A DNA stretch of 64,000 nucleotides from Streptacidiphilus sp. ASG 303 (GTDB lineage: Bacteria; Actinomycetota; Actinomycetes; Streptomycetales; Streptomycetaceae). The stretch lies in the NCBI RefSeq assembly GCF_020991365.1, contig NZ_JAJLRA010000026.1, positions 1 through 64,000 on the forward strand, given 5' to 3'. The position numbers and the translations under genes were made by a program. Under the pieces are notes generated by a model. It had not been told where the DNA came from, searched no databases, and saw only the letters and a list, made by a program, of their open reading frames with translations. Positions 18,891 through 30,291 of the stretch are shown here, piece by piece; position 1 is the first letter of the stretch, and each line of letters begins with the position of its first letter.

Positions 18891-19817
18891 GTGGCGGCCA
18901 TGGCCCGGCGCAGGCTGCTCTACCTGCACGGACTCTCCTCAGGTGACTTCGTGCCCACGCTGGAGCAGTTCCTCGGCTCGGCGGCCGGACCGTCGCCGGC
19001 GACGGTCACCAGACTGACCAAGCAGTGGAGCGATGACCACGCCGCCTTCCAGGACCGCGACCCGTCCGGCCGCGACTTCGTCCACGTATGGGCCGACGGG
19101 ATCCCTCCCAAGGTGAGGCTCGGCCAGGCCCACTCCTGCGTGCTGGTCCTGCTCGGCGTCCGCCTTGACGGCACCAAGGTGCTGATCGCCCTGGCCGAGG
19201 GCCTGCGCGAGTCCACCGAGTCGTGGGCCGACCTGCTGCGTGACTGCCGCCGCCGCGGCATGCGCGCCCCCGAGCTGGTCGTCGGCGACGGAGCGAGGGG
19301 CCTGTGGAAGGCCCTGGCCGAGGTGTTCCCTGCCGCACGGCACCAGCGCTGCTGGGCCCACCAAGCCCGAAACGTCACGAACGCCCTGCCGAAGTCAGCA
19401 CAGCCGAGCGCGACGAAGGCGATGCAGGAGATCTGCAACGCCGAGGATCGCGCGCACGCGGAGAAGGCGATCGAGGCGTTCGCGAAGACCTACGGCACGA
19501 AGTGGCCCAAGGCCGTCGCGAAGATCATCGACGACCAGGAGGAGCTGCTGGCGTTCTACGATTTCCCGGCCGAGCACTGGATCCACCTGCGGACCACGAA
19601 TCCCATCGACTCGACGTTCTCCACGGTCAAGCTGCGGACCAAGGTCACCCGAGGGGCCGGCAGCCCTGCCGCGGCCCTCGCCATGGTGTTCAAGCTCGTC
19701 GAGTCCGCCCAGGCCCGATGGCGCGCGATCACCGGAGCCCACCTCGTACCCTTGGTCCGCGCCAGGGCGCGGTTCGAGAACGGCGCGCTGGTCGAGCGCC
19801 AGGAGGAGGCTGCGTGA
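18891..19817 (+). CDS. IS256-family (Mutator-type) transposase, N-terminally truncated
   Basis: The frame encodes 308 residues; full-length members have about 400-430. Recognisable family sequence begins at LLYLHGLSSGDFVP. Catalytic elements remain: Asp in VWADGI, Asp in VVGDGARGLW, CWAHQARNV, and the Glu-containing region near WIHLRTTNPIDSTF. In that last motif, the family's usual IES is IDS here, so the catalytic Glu may be replaced by Asp. The N-terminal DNA-binding part is missing, and the assigned ATG 18891 lies in junction DNA. The product is probably inactive. The stop codon overlaps the start of the next small gene. Confidence 0.8.
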   Translation: MAAMARRRLLYLHGLSSGDFVPTLEQFLGSAAGPSPATVTRLTKQWSDDHAAFQDRDPSGRDFVHVWADGIPPKVRLGQAHSCVLVLLGVRLDGTKVLIALAEGLRESTESWADLLRDCRRRGMRAPELVVGDGARGLWKALAEVFPAARHQRCWAHQARNVTNALPKSAQPSATKAMQEICNAEDRAHAEKAIEAFAKTYGTKWPKAVAKIIDDQEELLAFYDFPAEHWIHLRTTNPIDSTFSTVKLRTKVTRGAGSPAAALAMVFKLVESAQARWRAITGAHLVPLVRARARFENGALVERQEEAA

Positions 19818-20200: not shown

Positions 20201-20925
20201 AAGGCCCCCCTGAGCTGCACGCTCCACCGAAGTGGCGCCCTGATCCTTCTGAAGTCCCTGCCCGGCGAGAGCGTGAACGCGGTGATCACGGATCCCCGGT
20301 GCAACAGCGGAGGCCGGCCGAGTTCGGAGCGCACCGGCCGCGATGCTCGTGCCAAGGACGTGGCGTCAAAATCCTTCTGTGACCTGAGGGCTTTTCCGGC
20401 GTGAACCGTGACCAGTGGTCCTGTCGTTCGCTGCCCGTCGAGCTGATCGCCGAGGCGTGCAGGGCCCCTACCGGGCATGCGGTCGCCGTGGCCTTCTCGC
20501 ACCGGCGTCAGGAGCCCCCATGTCCGATGCCCTGCAGGTGGCCGGCTGGACCTGGAGCGGCACCCCCCTGGGTCAATCCCGCCGGCCGGCCTGGCAAGGG
20601 TGGCTCAAGCAGTCCGCCGAGTTCCTCGTCCGGGGCGTGAAAGGCTCTCTGACCGGAGCCGGGCCATCCGCCTGACCGGCTGCTGGACCGCTTTTCAGCT
20701 GCGCAAGGGCCGCGTCCACACCACCCGGAAGCCGTTGAGATCGTGCAGTGGCTCATCCGGCGTTTCCGCCTCGAGGGCGGCACCGTCCTCGATCCCTTCA
20801 CCGGCTCCGGCTCGACCGGCGTCACGGCGCTGCGGGAAGGTCGCCGCTTCCTCGGCGTCGAAACGCTTCCTGCTCCACGCCGGGATCGCCGAGCGGCGCC
20901 TGTCGGGGGCGTGGGCGGGCAGGTG
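20201..20925 (+). pseudogene. Remnant of a beta-class DNA methyltransferase
   Basis: Fragments in all three plus frames line up as one methyltransferase. LLKSLPGESVNAVITDPR (from about 20237) holds the degraded DPPY motif. SGVNRDQWSCRSLPVELIAEACRA (from about 20394), LQVAGWTWSG, and GWLKQSAEFLVRGVKGS follow. [14 protein letters not shown] (about 20788-20830) is the SAM-binding motif, and a final [12 protein letters not shown] lies in another frame. DPPY before FxGxG is the order of beta-class N4-cytosine/N6-adenine enzymes, often phage-borne. At least four frameshifts and loss of the N-terminus at the IS256 end show advanced decay. Confidence 0.78.
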
Positions 20926-21126
20926 GTCGGGGAGGTCCTGGGTGGCGCGGCCACCGGGCGCCTGCGGGGGACCGCGAAGCCGTCCCGGAAGGACGGGGTG
21001 GACCTGGGGCTCGGCTCCGGATGCCCTGCCTGCCGGCACCGCGGGCACGCTCCGCGGCACGCCCGGCTCGGCCGGACCGGGTTGCGCCGCCGCGGTCCGC
21101 CGCCCGCCGGTGTGGATACTGGCGGC
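20926..21126. other. Intergenic stretch upstream of flavin reductase
   Basis: 200 bases without a gene. It contains the promoter region of the next gene, but no clear promoter hexamers were recognised. Confidence 0.3.
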
Positions 21127-21738
21127 ATGCGCATCGACTACGACCCCGAGGCCATGGACGCGGGGGCCTTTTACAAGCTGCTGACCGCCGTCGTCGTCCC
21201 CCGGCCCATCGCCTGGGTGTCCACCCTCGCCGGCGACGGGCAGACGGCGAACCTCGCACCGCACTCGTTCTTCACGGTCGCCTGCACCGAGCCGCCGATC
21301 GTCCAGTTCACCTCCGTGGGGCGGAAGGACTCGCTGCGGAACGTGGAGGCGACGGGCGAGTTCGTGGTGAACTTCGCACCCGAGCCGCTCTTCGAGCAGG
21401 TCAACGCCACCGCCACCGACTTCCCCGGCGACGTGGGGGAGTTCGACGCGGTGGGGGTGGAGCGGGAGCCCAGTATGCGGGTGAAGCCCCCGCGGGTGGC
21501 GGCGTCGCCGGTGGCGCTGGAGTGCCGGCTCCACAGCACGCTGCGTCTCGGCAACTCCACCGTGGTCTTCGGGCAGGTCGTGCACGCCGCCGTGCGCGAG
21601 GAGGTCGTGGTCGACGGGCACCCCGAGATCACCCGGATGCAGCCGCTGTCCCGTCTCGGGCGGAACGAGTGGGGGCTGACGAGCGGCATCCGGGAACTGG
21701 CCCGGATCCGGTACCAGGACTGGGAGCAGCAGGGCTGA
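21127..21738 (+). CDS. Flavin reductase-like (FMN-binding split barrel) protein
   Basis: A 203-residue protein starting at ATG 21127. The family signature is clear: [20 protein letters not shown], then [24 protein letters not shown] and a GEFVVNFAP strand, ending with ARIRYQDW. The split-barrel fold binds FMN and can reduce flavin with NAD(P)H for a partner monooxygenase, but no monooxygenase gene is adjacent. It marks the return to intact chromosomal genes after the decay zone. Confidence 0.83.
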
Positions 21739-26182: not shown

Positions 26183-27799
26183 TCAGCCACCACCGCCCGG
26201 GCCGGAGAGCCGGGGGAAGAGCGGCGCCGGAGGCGCCAGTGTGCTCCCCGCGCACCGCGCCGCGATCCGCGCCGCACCGTCGGGGAGGAAGGGCGCCAGT
26301 TCCCTCCCCAGGGTCCGGCAGCAGTGCACCAGGACGGCCAGGGACTCGTCCAGCCGTCCGCCCGCCCTCCGGTCGCCGCCCCGCTCGGCGCGGGCGAGCT
26401 CCCAGGGCCGCACGGACTCGACGTACCGGTTGGCCTCCTCGACGACGCCGAGGACCGCCCCGGTCGCCCGCCGCAGGTCGAACGCGTCCAGCGCCGCCGA
26501 CACCTGCACGGCCACCTCCCCGCACGCCGCCACCGCCGCGCAGTCCGGCAGCGGTGCCTGCGGCACGGCCCCGCCCCGGTAGCGGTGGACCATGGCCACG
26601 GTCCGGCTGACCAGGTTCCCCACCCCGTCAGCGAGGTCGGTGTCGTACCGGGCCGCCAGCCGCTCCTCCGTGAAGTCCACGTCTCCCGTCCGAGGCACCT
26701 CGCGCAGCAGCCACCAGCGCACCGCGTCCGTCCCGTACCGTCCGACCAGCTCCACCGGGTCGGCCGCGCCGCCGCCCGCCGACTTGCTGATCTTCCGCCC
26801 GTCCGCCGTCAGGTAGCCGTGCACCAGCACGTCGGTCGGCAGCGGCAGCCCGGCGGAGAGGAGGATCGCGGGCCAGTGCACGGCGTGGAAGCGCACCACG
26901 CCCTTGCCGACGTGGTGCACCCGCCGGTCGCCGCCCTCCCACCACGTGCGGTAGGCCGGGCCGTCGGCGGCGTAGTCCAGCGCGGTGATGTAGTTCCCCA
27001 GGGCGTCCCACCACACGTACACGACCTGGCCGGGGTCGTCCGGTACCGGCACGCCCCAGCCGCGGGCCCGCTCCCGGGAGCGGGAGACCGAGAAGTCCTG
27101 CAGCCCGGAGGCGATGAAGGCGAGCACCTCGTTGCGGCGCGCCTCCGGTTCGACGCGCAGCCGGCCGCTCGCGACGAGGGCGTGCAGCCGCTCCGCGTAG
27201 CGGGAGAGGCGGAAGAACCAGTTCTCCTCCACCACCGGGTGCGGTTCGGTGCCGTGCTCGGGACAGCGGCCGCCGTCGAGCTCCTCCTCGGACCAGAACT
27301 GCTCGCAGCCCACGCAGTACAGGCCCGCGTAGTGCTTCCGGTACAGGTCGCCGTTGGCCGCGCAGGCCCGCCACAGCCGCTCCACCCCGGGCCGGTGGCG
27401 CGGGTCGCTGCTGGTGCGCAGGAAGTCGTCCGGGGAGAGGGAGAGCGGGCCGTGCAGTGCGGCGAACGCGTCCGCGTTCCGGTCCACCAGCTCCCGCACC
27501 GGGACACCCAGGGACTCGGCGGCCAGCACGTTCTTCAGCGAGTTCTCGTCGGTGCCGGTGAGCAGCCGCACCCGGTGGCCGAGCCGGCGGTGGTGCCGGG
27601 CCAGCACGTCGGCCTGCACCAGCTCCAGGGCGAAGCCCAGGTGCGGGCGGGAGTTGACGTAGGGGATGGTGGTCGTCAGGTAGTGGCGGGGCGCCCCGGA
27701 GCCCGGGGATCCGGCATGGGCCGGGCACGGCCGGTCCGTCTCGTGCGCCTCGTCCGGCTCGTGTGCTTCCTGCGGCTGGTGCGCCTGGGTGTCGTCCAC
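26183..27799 (-). CDS. metG: Methionyl-tRNA synthetase
   Basis: A 538-residue class I synthetase starting at GTG 27799. After a His/Glu-rich N-terminal extension of about 36 residues comes LTTTIPYVNSRPHLGFALE with the HLGF form of HIGH (53-56). A zinc-like knuckle is CVGCEQFW...CPEHG, followed by KISKSAGGG (the KMSKS equivalent) and the anticodon-binding domain (SALDAFDLRRATGAV...NRYVESVRPWELA). It lacks the C-terminal tRNA-binding appendix. It charges tRNA-Met. Its leader contains a hairpin and a Met-rich mini-ORF (27853-27950) that may control it by attenuation. Confidence 0.92.
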   Translation of the reverse strand: MDDTQAHQPQEAHEPDEAHETDRPCPAHAGSPGSGAPRHYLTTTIPYVNSRPHLGFALELVQADVLARHHRRLGHRVRLLTGTDENSLKNVLAAESLGVPVRELVDRNADAFAALHGPLSLSPDDFLRTSSDPRHRPGVERLWRACAANGDLYRKHYAGLYCVGCEQFWSEEELDGGRCPEHGTEPHPVVEENWFFRLSRYAERLHALVASGRLRVEPEARRNEVLAFIASGLQDFSVSRSRERARGWGVPVPDDPGQVVYVWWDALGNYITALDYAADGPAYRTWWEGGDRRVHHVGKGVVRFHAVHWPAILLSAGLPLPTDVLVHGYLTADGRKISKSAGGGAADPVELVGRYGTDAVRWWLLREVPRTGDVDFTEERLAARYDTDLADGVGNLVSRTVAMVHRYRGGAVPQAPLPDCAAVAACGEVAVQVSAALDAFDLRRATGAVLGVVEEANRYVESVRPWELARAERGGDRRAGGRLDESLAVLVHCCRTLGRELAPFLPDGAARIAARCAGSTLAPPAPLFPRLSGPGGGG

Positions 27800-27852
27800 G
27801 GTCGGGGAGCTCCTCGTCGTCGGGCGGCGGGGCTCCGGGTGCGCGGTGCGCG

Positions 27853-27877
27853 CCGAGGCCCCGGTGCGGGGCCTCGG
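27853..27877 (-). terminator. 11-bp hairpin in the metG leader (possible attenuator)
   Basis: CCGAGGCCCCG and CGGGGCCTCGG form a perfect 11-bp stem with a 3-nt loop about 54 nt before the metG start. On the minus-strand RNA its 5' arm can also pair through GGCCCC with GGGGCU in the upstream mini-ORF, giving mutually exclusive folds. There is no U tract. It follows the Met-containing mini-ORF at 27897-27950. Confidence 0.55.
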
Positions 27878-27896
27878 ATGGTGTGGTCGTCCGGAT

Positions 27897-27950
27897 TCAG
27901 CAGCCCCTGGAGCGGGGCATCATCGGCTGGTGCGCGGGCGGCCTGGACAT
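27897..27950 (-). CDS. Possible leader peptide with tandem Met codons upstream of metG
   Basis: An ATG-to-TGA mini-ORF on the minus strand encodes the 17-residue peptide MSRPPAHQPMMPRSRGC, with two adjacent Met codons at 27918-27923. No good ribosome binding site precedes it. TAGCGT 8 nt upstream resembles a -10 box, which would make the message nearly leaderless. Directly after the Met pair, GCCCC can pair with GGGGC (a 5-bp hairpin), and that GGGGC could instead pair with the terminator arm downstream. This is the classic arrangement for charged-tRNA sensing, but GC-rich DNA makes chance pairing common. Confidence 0.4.
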   Translation of the reverse strand: MSRPPAHQPMMPRSRGC

Positions 27951-28026
27951 GCGGCCGACGCTAGCAGGGCGCACGGGCCGCCCGCACCGGGATTCCTCCG
28001 CACCCGGGACGGCCGCCGCGGCCCCC

Positions 28027-28524
28027 TCAGCCCCCCGCCGGTTCCGCCGGTTCCGCCGACTCCGCCGGTTCCGGCGGCTCGTCGCCGAGCAGGTAGCGGG
28101 CTCCCGGGCCGCCGTCCGCCGCCGCGTCGTCGGGGTTGTACAGCCGGCAGGTGCGCAGCGACAGGCAGCCGCAGCCGATGCAGCCGTCGAGCTTCCGGCG
28201 GAGCCGTTCCAGCTCCGCGATCCGGGCGTCGATGCGGTGCTGCCAGGTCGACGCCACCCGCGCCCACTCGCGGGCGTTCGGCGACCGGTCCTGCGGCAGT
28301 CCGCCCATCGCCCGCCGCGCCTCCTCCAGCGACAGGCCGACCTGCTGCGCCGCCCGGACGAACGCGACCCGGCGCAGCGCCGCCCGCGCGTACCGGCGCT
28401 GCCCGCCGGCGGTCCGCTCGGAGTGGATCAGGCCCAGCTCCTCGTAGTAGCGCAGGGCGGAGGGGGCGAGTCCGCTGCGGGCGGAGAGCTCCCCGATGGT
28501 GAGGCGGTCACGGAGTGCGGTCAC
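28027..28524 (-). CDS. soxR: Redox-sensing MerR-family activator SoxR
   Basis: A 165-residue regulator. GTG 28524 is chosen because it sits at the family N-terminus just before LTIGELSARSG. The MerR helix-turn-helix (SGLAPSALRYYEELGLI) is followed by a dimerisation helix and the [2Fe-2S] motif CIGCGCLSLRTC (Cys 115, 118, 120, 126), spaced CX2CXCX5C as in SoxR. The Pro/Glu-rich tail resembles other streptomycete SoxR proteins. In actinobacteria SoxR responds to redox-active compounds rather than superoxide. A perfect SoxR box lies 24 bp upstream, shared with the divergent transketolase genes. Confidence 0.93.
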   Translation of the reverse strand: MTALRDRLTIGELSARSGLAPSALRYYEELGLIHSERTAGGQRRYARAALRRVAFVRAAQQVGLSLEEARRAMGGLPQDRSPNAREWARVASTWQHRIDARIAELERLRRKLDGCIGCGCLSLRTCRLYNPDDAAADGGPGARYLLGDEPPEPAESAEPAEPAGG

Positions 28525-28547
28525 ATCGCCGATCCTAGGCCTCTTGA

Positions 28548-28565
28548 CCTCAAGCGCGCTTGAGG
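28548..28565. promoter_or_regulatory. SoxR box, perfect 18-bp palindrome
   Basis: CCTCAAGCGCGCTTGAGG matches the known SoxR-binding consensus and is fully symmetric. It overlaps TTGACC at 28544-28549, a good -35 for the rightward transketolase genes, and starts 24 bp before soxR and ends 15 bp before the transketolase start. A position inside the spacer of the target promoter is normal for MerR-type activators. Confidence 0.9.
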
Positions 28566-28580
28566 TTGCAGCATCGTCCC

Positions 28581-29282
28581 ATGACGCTGACCAGTGAGAG
28601 CGCACGCCTCGGCCACCGCGACCTGCCCCGCCTGATGGCCCTGATGACCGGCGACGAGAAGCACGGCCCGGCCGCCACCTCCACCCTCGACGTCCTGTGG
28701 GTCCTCTACGACCGGGTGCTGCGCGTGACGCCGGAGACCGCCGACGCCCCCGACCGCGACCGCTTCCTCCTCTCCAAGGGCCACGGCCCGATGGCCTACT
28801 ACGCGGTGCTCGCCGCCAAGGGGTTCCTCGACCCGGCGCTGCTGTCCGGCTTCGGCGGCTTCGACTCGCCGCTCGGGTACCACCCCGACCGGGTGCTGGT
28901 GCCCGGCGTGGAGATCAGCAGCGGCTCCCTCGGCCACGGCCTGCCGCTGGGCGTGGGCACCGCGCTCGGACTGCGCGCCCAGGGTCTGACCGACTCCCGG
29001 GTCTGGGTCCTCACCGGGGACGCCGAGCTCGACGAGGGATCCAACCAGGAGGCCGCCGCCTACGCGGGCGCGGTCGGCCTGGAGGCCCTGCACACCGTCG
29101 TCGTCGACAACTCCTCCGCCACCCACGGCCGCCGCGGCGGCATCGCCGCCCGGTTCGCGGCGGAGGGCTGGTCGGTGCTCACGGCGGACGGCCGGGACCA
29201 CGAGGCCCTGGCGGAGGCGTTCACCGCCCCGCACCCGGGACGGCCGCACGCCGTCGTCGCCGTCGTCGAGCCGAAGCACTGA
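28581..29282 (+). CDS. Transketolase-like protein, N-terminal (ThDP pyrophosphate) subunit
   Basis: A 233-residue protein starting at ATG 28581. It matches the N-terminal subunit of split transketolases: RFLLSKGHGPMAYYAVLAAKG, then EISSGSLGHGLPLGVG and GDAELDEGSNQEAA. In the last motif the GDxE of transketolase is followed by the Asn that binds Mg-thiamine diphosphate. It must act with the C-terminal subunit encoded 110 nt downstream. The SoxR box in front implies induction by redox-active compounds. The sugar or other ketol donor is not known; split pairs are often not the main pentose-phosphate enzyme. Confidence 0.87.
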   Translation: MTLTSESARLGHRDLPRLMALMTGDEKHGPAATSTLDVLWVLYDRVLRVTPETADAPDRDRFLLSKGHGPMAYYAVLAAKGFLDPALLSGFGGFDSPLGYHPDRVLVPGVEISSGSLGHGLPLGVGTALGLRAQGLTDSRVWVLTGDAELDEGSNQEAAAYAGAVGLEALHTVVVDNSSATHGRRGGIAARFAAEGWSVLTADGRDHEALAEAFTAPHPGRPHAVVAVVEPKH

Positions 29283-29391
29283 CCGGTCCGCCCGCCGGCC
29301 CGCCCCGTACGCCCCGCCCCTGACCGTCCCACCTGCCCGCCCGCCCGCCCGTCCCTCCGTCCGCCTGCCCGCCCGATCAGGAGACCCCGCC

Positions 29392-30291
29392 GTGCCCACC
29401 ATGCGCGACCGCTTCGCCGCCGTCACCACCCGCCTGCTCGACGAGGACCCGCGCCTCGCCCTCGTCCTCGCCGACATCTCCGCCGACCGCTTCACCGCAG
29501 CCGCCGCCGCCCACCCCGACCGGGTCCTCAACGTCGGCATCCGCGAGCAGCTGATGGTCTCCGTCGCCGGCGGCCTCGCCCTCACCGGCCTCCGGCCGGT
29601 CGTGCACACCTTCGCGAGCTTCCTCGTCGAGCGCGCCTTCGAGCAGGTCAAGCTCGACCTCGACCACCAGGACGCCGCCGCCGTCCTGGTCAGCGCCCTC
29701 GGCTCGTACGACTGGCCCGAGGGCGGCCGCACCCACCAGGCGCCCGGCGACGTGGCACTGATGGACACCCTGTCCGGCTGGACCGTCCACGTGCCGGGCC
29801 ACCCCGACGAGGCCGAGGTGCTGCTGCGGGACGCCGTCGCCTCCGACGACCGGGTCTACGTGCGGCTCTCCGCCCAGCAGAACGCCGCCGCGCGGCCCGT
29901 GGCGCCCGGCCGGTTCACCCCGGTGCGGCAGGGCTCGGCCGGGACGGTTGTCGCGGTCGGACCGATGCTCGACGCGGTGCTCGCCGCCGTCGAGGGGCTG
30001 GACGTCTCCGTGCTCTACGCCGCCACCGTGCGGCCCTTCGACGGCGCCGCGCTGCGTGCCGCGACGGAGGGCGCGGCCGACGTGGTGCTGGTGGAGCCGT
30101 ACCTCGCGGGCACCTCGGTCCCGTTCGCCGCACAGGCGCTGGAGGACCGTCCGCACCGGCTGCTCGGCCTCGGCGTCGCCCGTGCCGAACTGCGCCGCTA
30201 CGGCACCATGGCCGACCACCTCGCGGCCCACGGTCTGGACCCCCGCTCCCTGCGCGCGCGCATCTCCGGCTTCCTGCCGCTGCCGGTGTGA
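29392..30291 (+). CDS. Transketolase-like protein, C-terminal (pyrimidine-binding) subunit
   Basis: A 299-residue protein starting at GTG 29392 after CAGGAG. It contains RVLNVGIREQLMVSVAGGLALTGLRPVVHTF, the pyrimidine-binding signature with the catalytic Glu in GIREQ, and FASFLVERAFEQVKLDL. The C-terminal transketolase domain includes VAVGPMLDAVLAAVEGLDVSVLYAATVRPFD. Together with the upstream gene it forms a heterotetrameric thiamine-diphosphate enzyme. The 109-nt gap between the two genes is C-rich and holds no evident terminator. Confidence 0.87.
   Translation: MPTMRDRFAAVTTRLLDEDPRLALVLADISADRFTAAAAAHPDRVLNVGIREQLMVSVAGGLALTGLRPVVHTFASFLVERAFEQVKLDLDHQDAAAVLVSALGSYDWPEGGRTHQAPGDVALMDTLSGWTVHVPGHPDEAEVLLRDAVASDDRVYVRLSAQQNAAARPVAPGRFTPVRQGSAGTVVAVGPMLDAVLAAVEGLDVSVLYAATVRPFDGAALRAATEGAADVVLVEPYLAGTSVPFAAQALEDRPHRLLGLGVARAELRRYGTMADHLAAHGLDPRSLRARISGFLPLPV

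Follow-up and report, generated by a model that had tools for sequence, protein, structure and literature searches.

The methionyl-tRNA synthetase gene and its leader

The stretch of DNA analysed here (the window, 64,000 nucleotides from a Streptacidiphilus genome) carries on its minus strand a metG gene coding for a methionyl-tRNA synthetase (MetRS) and, upstream of it, a short open reading frame and five segments that can form alternative pairings. These features are listed below.

27958-27963, minus strand: -10-like box TAGCGT (TANNNT), 7 nt 5' of the leader ATG
27897-27950, minus strand: leader ORF, MSRPPAHQPMMPRSRGC, with ATG at 27950 and stop codon TGA at 27899-27897; its translation is inferred
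27918-27923, minus strand: tandem Met codons ATGATG, the proposed regulatory codons (from the sequence and from relatives)
27914-27918, minus strand: strand 1, GCCCC, of the 1:2 hairpin directly 3' of the Met codons
27903-27907, minus strand: strand 2, GGGGC, pairing partner of strand 1 or strand 3
27867-27877, minus strand: strand 3, CCGAGGCCCCG, 5' arm of the terminator-like hairpin and antiterminator partner of strand 2
27853-27863, minus strand: strand 4, CGGGGCCTCGG, 3' arm of the terminator-like hairpin, without a T-tract in the genus of the window
27826-27836, minus strand: strand 5, GGAGCCCCGCC, alternative partner of strand 4
27810-27815, minus strand: GAGGAG, Shine-Dalgarno-like sequence of metG, 10 nt 5' of the GTG start
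26183-27799, minus strand: metG, auxiliary methionyl-tRNA synthetase, 538 aa, GTG start

An earlier note on this DNA had described a mini-ORF with an adjacent pair of Met codons, the blocks GCCCC and GGGGC, and an 11-bp hairpin ahead of metG; all of these are present exactly to the base. The note did not mention the -10-like box, the absence of a U-tract, strand 5 or the auxiliary character of the enzyme. The 3:4 hairpin (CCGAGGCCCCG/CGGGGCCTCGG) consists of exactly 11 bp closed by a CAC loop (-23.8 kcal/mol in a hairpin scan), the GGGG of strand 2 begins 13 nt after the start of the second Met codon, and 97 nt separate the leader stop from the metG start. The possibility that the leader is a frameshifted N-terminus of metG was excluded, since the two frames differ and the leader is conserved as a separate ORF. 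The location of the TANNNT box just 5' of the leader start implies leaderless transcription, in the absence of transcription start site data; in S. lividans, the reported -10 consensus is TAnnnT (PMC8079986). A GGACG-like block at 27892-27888, between strands 2 and 3, is also conserved in an alignment of 35 leaders, where G63 is invariant and G59 and C62 are kept in at least 90 per cent.

Judged from its sequence, the metG product is a complete MetRS, matching PF09334 (5.9e-85) and scoring above the cut-off of TIGR00398. The translation contains HLGF and KISKS, which we take to be the synthetase motifs. It is not the only MetRS gene: the same genome carries another MetRS (G000:C22), 41% identical to that of the window, and for this reason the metG of the window is called auxiliary (MetRS2). 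The region upstream of the other gene is without any such leader. The other MetRS of one Nonomuraea and one Saccharothrix genome is of a more distant type. That MetRS2 serves as a back-up or as an inhibitor-resistant enzyme is an inference. A duplicated MetRS with different inhibitor sensitivity was reportedly found in Streptococcus pneumoniae by Gentry in 2003.

Directly 5' of metG, on the same strand, lies a gene for a SoxR-like regulator (28027-28605), from which read-through is possible. In the region 28560-30291, two genes code for the N-terminal and C-terminal parts of a transketolase, and an MFS transporter gene adjoins them in the opposite orientation. At 12-16 kb from metG there are AMP-binding, short-chain dehydrogenase and MaoC genes, and at 18891-19817 a Mutator-family transposase gene. 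The first 40 residues of the ORF at 20743-21738 match an N6_N4 DNA methylase and the remainder a flavin reductase; possibly its start was called too far upstream, or it is a fusion. No clear biosynthetic cluster or defence system was recognized near metG by Pfam analysis of 27 of the 51 predicted ORFs of the window and PADLOC analysis of four.

Occurrence of the leader in relatives

The gene is patchily distributed. It was detected in 4 of 396 genomes of the phylum, including that of the window, in 2 of 199 Rhizobiaceae genomes and in a single genome (the Rhizobium carrying locus L067) out of 289 from the wider class to which Rhizobium belongs. Within the Streptomycetaceae, 32 of 394 genomes have an ortholog (E <= 1e-130). 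All 32 were examined and 28 have the leader; the four leaderless orthologs (L040, L041, G057 and G018) together make up a sister clade.

A scan of named genomes gave 35 loci, for 30 of which, L067 among them, the upstream region was read; one of these loci (L042) repeats another (L011). The leader was evident in 29 of the 30 regions. At L069 it is a weaker leader with a single Met, recognized by eye. The remaining five loci are only 27-40% identical, and no leader was found in the four checked (L076 was not among these). In plasmid records, 12 of 31 of which were fetched, the leader precedes the gene at all eight MetRS2 loci, six of them rhizobial, and is lacking at all four distant MetRS loci. 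Both MetRS2 loci found in rhizobial genomes have it as well, the newly found one (L099) with an MMM leader. Loci L079-L084, with a triple-Met leader before MetRS2, are plasmid-borne in Rhizobium, Agrobacterium and Sinorhizobium. The neighbours of MetRS2 are alike at L082 and L083 (a hydrolase/esterase, an ethanolamine utilization protein and an enoyl-CoA hydratase) and differ at L084.

For comparison we compiled 68 leaders with distinct sequences, L069 not included. As these were selected for having a leader, their number is no count of success. A class-level search run after the pattern had been defined revealed 31 other genomes with orthologs, and 29 loci were available. A Met-containing leader was found at all 29 and a TANNNT box at 28; only these two features were scored, full strand tests being left out, and L176 repeats the leader of L059. 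This later set includes new versions of the leader, for example VSTARVTAEAASFRMMLMSMPSGLFRAS, with only the Met codons in common.

The leader thus recurs ahead of this enzyme in many soil bacteria, in both Actinomycetota and Rhizobiaceae, and the order of the 1:2, 2:3 and 3:4 pairings is kept across both phyla. The stems of the eight distinct rhizobial leaders, seven of which encode MMM, are unrelated to those of Actinomycetota. In L067, strands 1, 2 and 3 are CCGCTTC, GAAGCGG and CCGCTTC, and the terminator has a TTTTT tail. Three divergent loci newly found in the phylum (L110, L111 and L112) have Met leaders with a poor fit of strand 2 to strand 3, L110 reaching -8.9 kcal/mol. Apart from the 2:3 fit of these three, the sequences show conservation of the Met codons, of the order and spacing of the strands and of their complementarity, and the earlier proposal, which was to fall if the mini-ORF and its pairings were not conserved, was not refuted by this part of the comparison.

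Alternative pairings and their covariation

The complementarity postulated between strands 1 and 2, 2 and 3, and 3 and 4 is present in the window, and its order is maintained in Actinomycetota and Rhizobiaceae. In the compiled set, where six terminators and six 1:2 hairpins were set by eye over the automatic calls, 2:3 has a predicted energy of -9 kcal/mol or lower in 65 of the 68 leaders, and in 67 strand 2 pairs better with strand 3 than with the linker.

Co-evolution of the strands was assessed by a swap test that compares a strand's own partner with partners swapped between leaders; relatedness of the sequences was not removed. For 2:3, p was 0.0025 with 21 representatives, 0.086 with 12 types, 0.030 with 10 of those types, 0.0008 with all 68 leaders and 0.51 with the 60 leaders of Actinomycetota, in which the core hardly varies. 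Much of the signal is contributed by L067 and L099, two rhizobial leaders that both have GAAGCGG as strand 2 facing CCGCTTC as strand 3. In the alignment of 35 leaders none of eight pairs had a compensatory change, because the core is invariant, and the structure predicted from it had 1:2 and 3:4 pairs only. The covariation foreseen as a check on the proposal is consequently limited for 2:3. Strand 5, a block complementary to strand 4, lies between the hairpin and the Shine-Dalgarno sequence and is conserved in relatives. The 4:5 pairing co-varies more clearly than 2:3, with p of 5e-5 (21 representatives), 0.0045 (12 types) and 0.0002 (all 68, and likewise the 60 of Actinomycetota). Pairing of strand 5 with strand 2 was considered and rejected, the swap test being non-significant (p 0.14-0.79).

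Folding predictions were in line with a switch. With a ribosome placed at Met and the RNA made up to strand 3, 2:3 forms in 12 of 12 leaders tried, including that of the window; moving the ribosome to the stop codon gives 3:4 in every one of them. At equilibrium, the full-length leader of the window adopts 3:4 and not 2:3, so that the choice between them must be kinetic and take place during transcription. In classical trp attenuation the choice is likewise made during transcription. When the full leader of L067 is folded with a stalled ribosome, the predicted structure is 2:3 together with 4:5, and a 12-bp 4:5 stem can form in L083; L112 leaves little room for strand 5.

Possible mode of termination

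Strand 5 is made after the decision to terminate has been taken, and for this reason its role remains open: it could lock the read-through form, expose or hide a Rho site, or affect mRNA stability. Of the compiled leaders, 45 of 68 have a T-rich tail, defined as four or more T within 10 nt where strand 4 ends, and seven of the eight rhizobial leaders have at least five. In the genus of the window the tail is missing: the window and two congeners have no T in these 10 nt (3 of 3). Termination there may rely on a hairpin without U residues or on Rho, neither of which has been demonstrated.

One can imagine that Met codons are sensed in the same way, with an output in this genus other than intrinsic termination, either through Rho acting at the C-rich region of strand 5 or through hairpins that alter translation or stability of the metG mRNA. 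The missing T-tract, the C-rich composition of 27840-27821, and the support for 4:5 even within Actinomycetota speak in favour of such an output, although strand 5 is made only once the terminator decision has fallen, and pyrimidine-rich Rho sites are weakly suggested for mycobacterial cys leaders in the available part of PMC1262725. It is weakened by the T-rich tails of the majority of leaders. In addition, strands 4 and 5 of the window end before the Shine-Dalgarno sequence, so that its direct occlusion is not evident. We consider this alternative unlikely, yet it deserves to be kept in mind.

Leader peptide and position of the Met codons

All 68 compiled leaders have an internal Met codon. 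The tandem Met codons emphasized in the earlier note are present in the window but are not obligatory in the family: Met codons are adjacent in 56 leaders, single in 10 and spaced in two. In 57 of the 68, a distance of 4-9 nt separates the end of the TANNNT box from the leader start. Counted from the first base of the last Met codon, strand 1 begins at 2-5 nt in 66 leaders, and strand 2 at 12-13 nt in 52 and at 12 nt or beyond in 64. The latter offset corresponds approximately to the downstream edge of a ribosome with the Met codon in its A site.

In three respects these leaders have what is expected of an attenuator. A short ORF, whose translation is inferred, is preceded at a suitable distance by a -10-like box (in 57 of 68 of the compiled set and 28 of 29 of the later one); the regulatory codons are cognate to the gene, Met codons preceding a MetRS (68 of 68 and 29 of 29); and the mutually exclusive 1:2, 2:3 and 3:4 pairings are so placed that only strand 1 would be masked, L110, L111 and L112 being poor in this respect. 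Sensors of ribosome arrest or of general translation stress, of the ermC or WhiB7-leader type, are a different possibility, in which the leader would not respond to Met-tRNA. What could be said for it is that conservation in most leaders of Streptomycetaceae extends to the residues that follow the Met pair (often PRxRGC). An arrest peptide, however, would require a conserved peptide at the stall site beyond one residue, and this was not found across clades, where leaders such as MMAP, MMRPTRGPS, MMMPRS, MMRRFAMKR and MMLMSMPSGLFRAS share Met only. Moreover, the downstream gene is a MetRS gene everywhere examined; most loci were found through their MetRS, but a search with the RNA alone (see below) agrees. 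We therefore regard an arrest or stress sensor as improbable.

Even less credit can be given to the view that the hairpin acts as an ordinary terminator or has only a structural role and that the mini-ORF is translated merely to assist translation of metG by re-initiation. Leader genes have been hypothesized to boost expression over short distances (PMC4833913, available in part), but the distances given there are 10-11 bp compared with 97 nt between leader stop and metG in the window, and the paired strands and the position of Met are kept across phyla.

Phylogenetic distribution and search with the RNA model

In a first tree of 78 rows (59 with leader, 19 without), a single change of label suffices to explain the distribution of the leader, with a support of only 37 at that branch. 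A second tree, from which 23 of 91 proteins were dropped as near-duplicates or long branches (including the leader-bearing L039, L069, L111 and L112), united the 55 leader-bearing MetRS in one clade (96/88) versus 13 others, and grouped this clade with the sister clade of leaderless auxiliary MetRS (L040, L041, L113 and L114) with a support of 100/98. The removal of long branches was decided after the first tree had been seen. Outside the leader clade, none of 19 rows shows a mini-ORF with Met preceded by a TANNNT box (15 of 15 other MetRS and 4 of 4 of the sister clade lack it); two of these rows, L098 and L101, represent one gene. Small Met-containing ORFs without the box were seen at L072, L075, L095 and L100. 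Among the loci examined, the leader is restricted to one MetRS clade. The reading frame upstream of L040, L041 and L113, translated by eye, ends alike (RAFQ[RK]AEAA), which as a sequence likeness suggests a conserved neighbourhood.

A covariance model built from 35 leaders was run over 388 genomes of the family. It yielded 29 strong sites (E <= 1e-8), 28 of which lie just 5' of MetRS2 genes already known. Since 27 of the 29 belong to the training set, they match by construction; the two others are G053, at a known MetRS2, and G090, a new site directly before a MetRS2. A further 18 matches were weaker (E of 5.2e-5 and weaker), two of them overlapping known leaders on the opposite strand. As to whether the element also serves other genes, the four weaker matches that were opened (L146-L149; 12 were left unopened) appear inside long reading frames of other genes, and this idea was not retained.

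The whole arrangement (TANNNT box, mini-ORF, internal Met, 1:2, strong 3:4 and 2:3) was also sought on both strands of 402,990 bases, consisting of the window and 31 related loci and not of whole genomes. All 28 matches, one of them in the window, are leaders of the MetRS2 clade, with none elsewhere; two leaders of the clade in the scanned DNA, L059 and L069, were missed. That the arrangement arose by chance in GC-rich DNA, which folds easily and in which the window leader is only moderately distinguished from its shuffled versions (z -2.15; 6 of 200 shuffles fold equally well), can be dismissed for practical purposes in view of this absence of unrelated matches, the presence of the leader at 29 of 29 later loci, the further MetRS2 found with the RNA alone, and the occurrence of the leader at all examined loci of one clade and at none examined outside it.

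Proposed mechanism

We consider it highly probable, although no expression data are available, that the leader is a ribosome-mediated transcription attenuator that senses a shortage of charged elongator Met-tRNA and controls the auxiliary MetRS. Transcription would start at or beside the leader ATG. With plentiful Met-tRNA, the ribosome would reach the stop codon and cover strand 2, the 3:4 terminator would form and metG would be off; without a ribosome, 1:2 and 3:4 would form and transcription would end as well. If methionine runs short or the main MetRS is inhibited, Met-tRNA becomes scarce; the ribosome would then stall while a Met codon occupies its A site, masking strand 1. Strand 2, thereby freed, would pair with strand 3 and block the terminator, and strand 4 may later pair with strand 5. 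In this way the leader probably turns MetRS2 on when charging of Met-tRNA fails. The start site, pausing during transcription, termination and the response to Met-tRNA are all inferred.

Further points tell against this attenuator model. MetRS also charges the initiator tRNA, and severe loss of Met-tRNA should therefore stop initiation on the leader and lead to termination. Consequently, the switch should act under conditions in which elongator Met-tRNA is limiting and initiation still continues. Furthermore, altering the candidate regulatory codons ahead of ilvB in S. coelicolor had no effect, according to the accessible portion of PMC1262725, which indicates that a Streptomyces leader peptide need not act by classical attenuation.

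Relation to known systems

By analogy, the leader is best read as resembling the attenuators of Streptomyces trpS genes, with a new specificity. In Streptomyces coelicolor, the gene for the auxiliary TrpRS1, which is resistant to indolmycin, has an attenuator that is said to have been described by Vecchione and Sello in 2010 and that shares with the Met leader, as far as we are aware, an actinomycete auxiliary synthetase, a leader with cognate codons, alternative hairpins and induction upon loss of charged tRNA. The codons are for Trp there and for Met here, and Met, being the initiator too, poses a problem of sensing that Trp lacks; the fifth strand and the occurrence in Rhizobiaceae belong to the Met leader. 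The trp, his and phe attenuators of E. coli and Salmonella, as generally known, have the same exclusive 1:2, 2:3 and 3:4 pairings controlled by a stalled ribosome, with more than four strands in his, but they are not leaderless. We know of no case of Met or MetRS among such attenuators. Genes of methionine metabolism are controlled at the RNA level by T-box and SAM riboswitches; the Met leader differs from both in that it is proposed to sense by means of a translated leader. No T-box, SAM riboswitch or other Rfam element matched the window at the gathering threshold, and with E up to 10 the region 27600-28100 gave neither T-box nor SAM riboswitch, but only a weak sRNA match inside metG.

Candidate attenuators of Streptomyces trpS2 and leuS (Seliverstov 2005; PMC1262725, partial text) have the classical leader, antiterminator and terminator 5' of a synthetase gene, and differ in their Trp and Leu codons. 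Attenuators of trpS, leuS, alaS and thrS have been described or proposed in Streptomyces (parts of PMC1262725 and PMC8079986). The same part of PMC1262725 names the S-box and, for the regions preceding methionine operons, reports no RNA structures that are conserved. Another system is metL, a leader proposed 5' of metNIQ in S. lividans TK24, which is also a leaderless streptomycete leader peptide with Met codons; it has 29 aa, precedes a methionine importer, its Met codons are non-adjacent, and termination was reported to be unclear (PMC8079986, in the part available). The accessible portion of PMC2965389, on premature terminators, does not mention metG, and attenuation involving MetRS or Met codons is not the subject of PMC12123629 and PMC6412442, judging from partial texts. 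The earlier note knew of no described case for metG, and our survey of titles and beginnings of abstracts in the open-licence literature revealed no attenuator with a Met-codon leader or upstream of a MetRS gene; a report elsewhere is possible.

Implications

If the model is correct, attenuation by leader peptides extends to methionine, the amino acid whose tRNA also starts the leader, and the leader provides a ready genomic marker for inducible auxiliary MetRS. A more far-reaching version can be put forward only tentatively: a widespread family of Met-codon attenuators with a five-strand switch (1:2 and 3:4 off, 2:3 and 4:5 on), present in Actinomycetota and on rhizobial plasmids, may control an inducible, probably inhibitor-tolerant MetRS and somehow distinguish depletion of elongator from that of initiator Met-tRNA, which would imply that soil contains natural inhibitors of MetRS or antimetabolites of methionine. 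If the case of TrpRS1 and its resistance to indolmycin is taken as a parallel, such leaders may point to a natural pressure on MetRS in soil. They would also constitute a clean system to study how cells sense elongator separately from initiator Met-tRNA.
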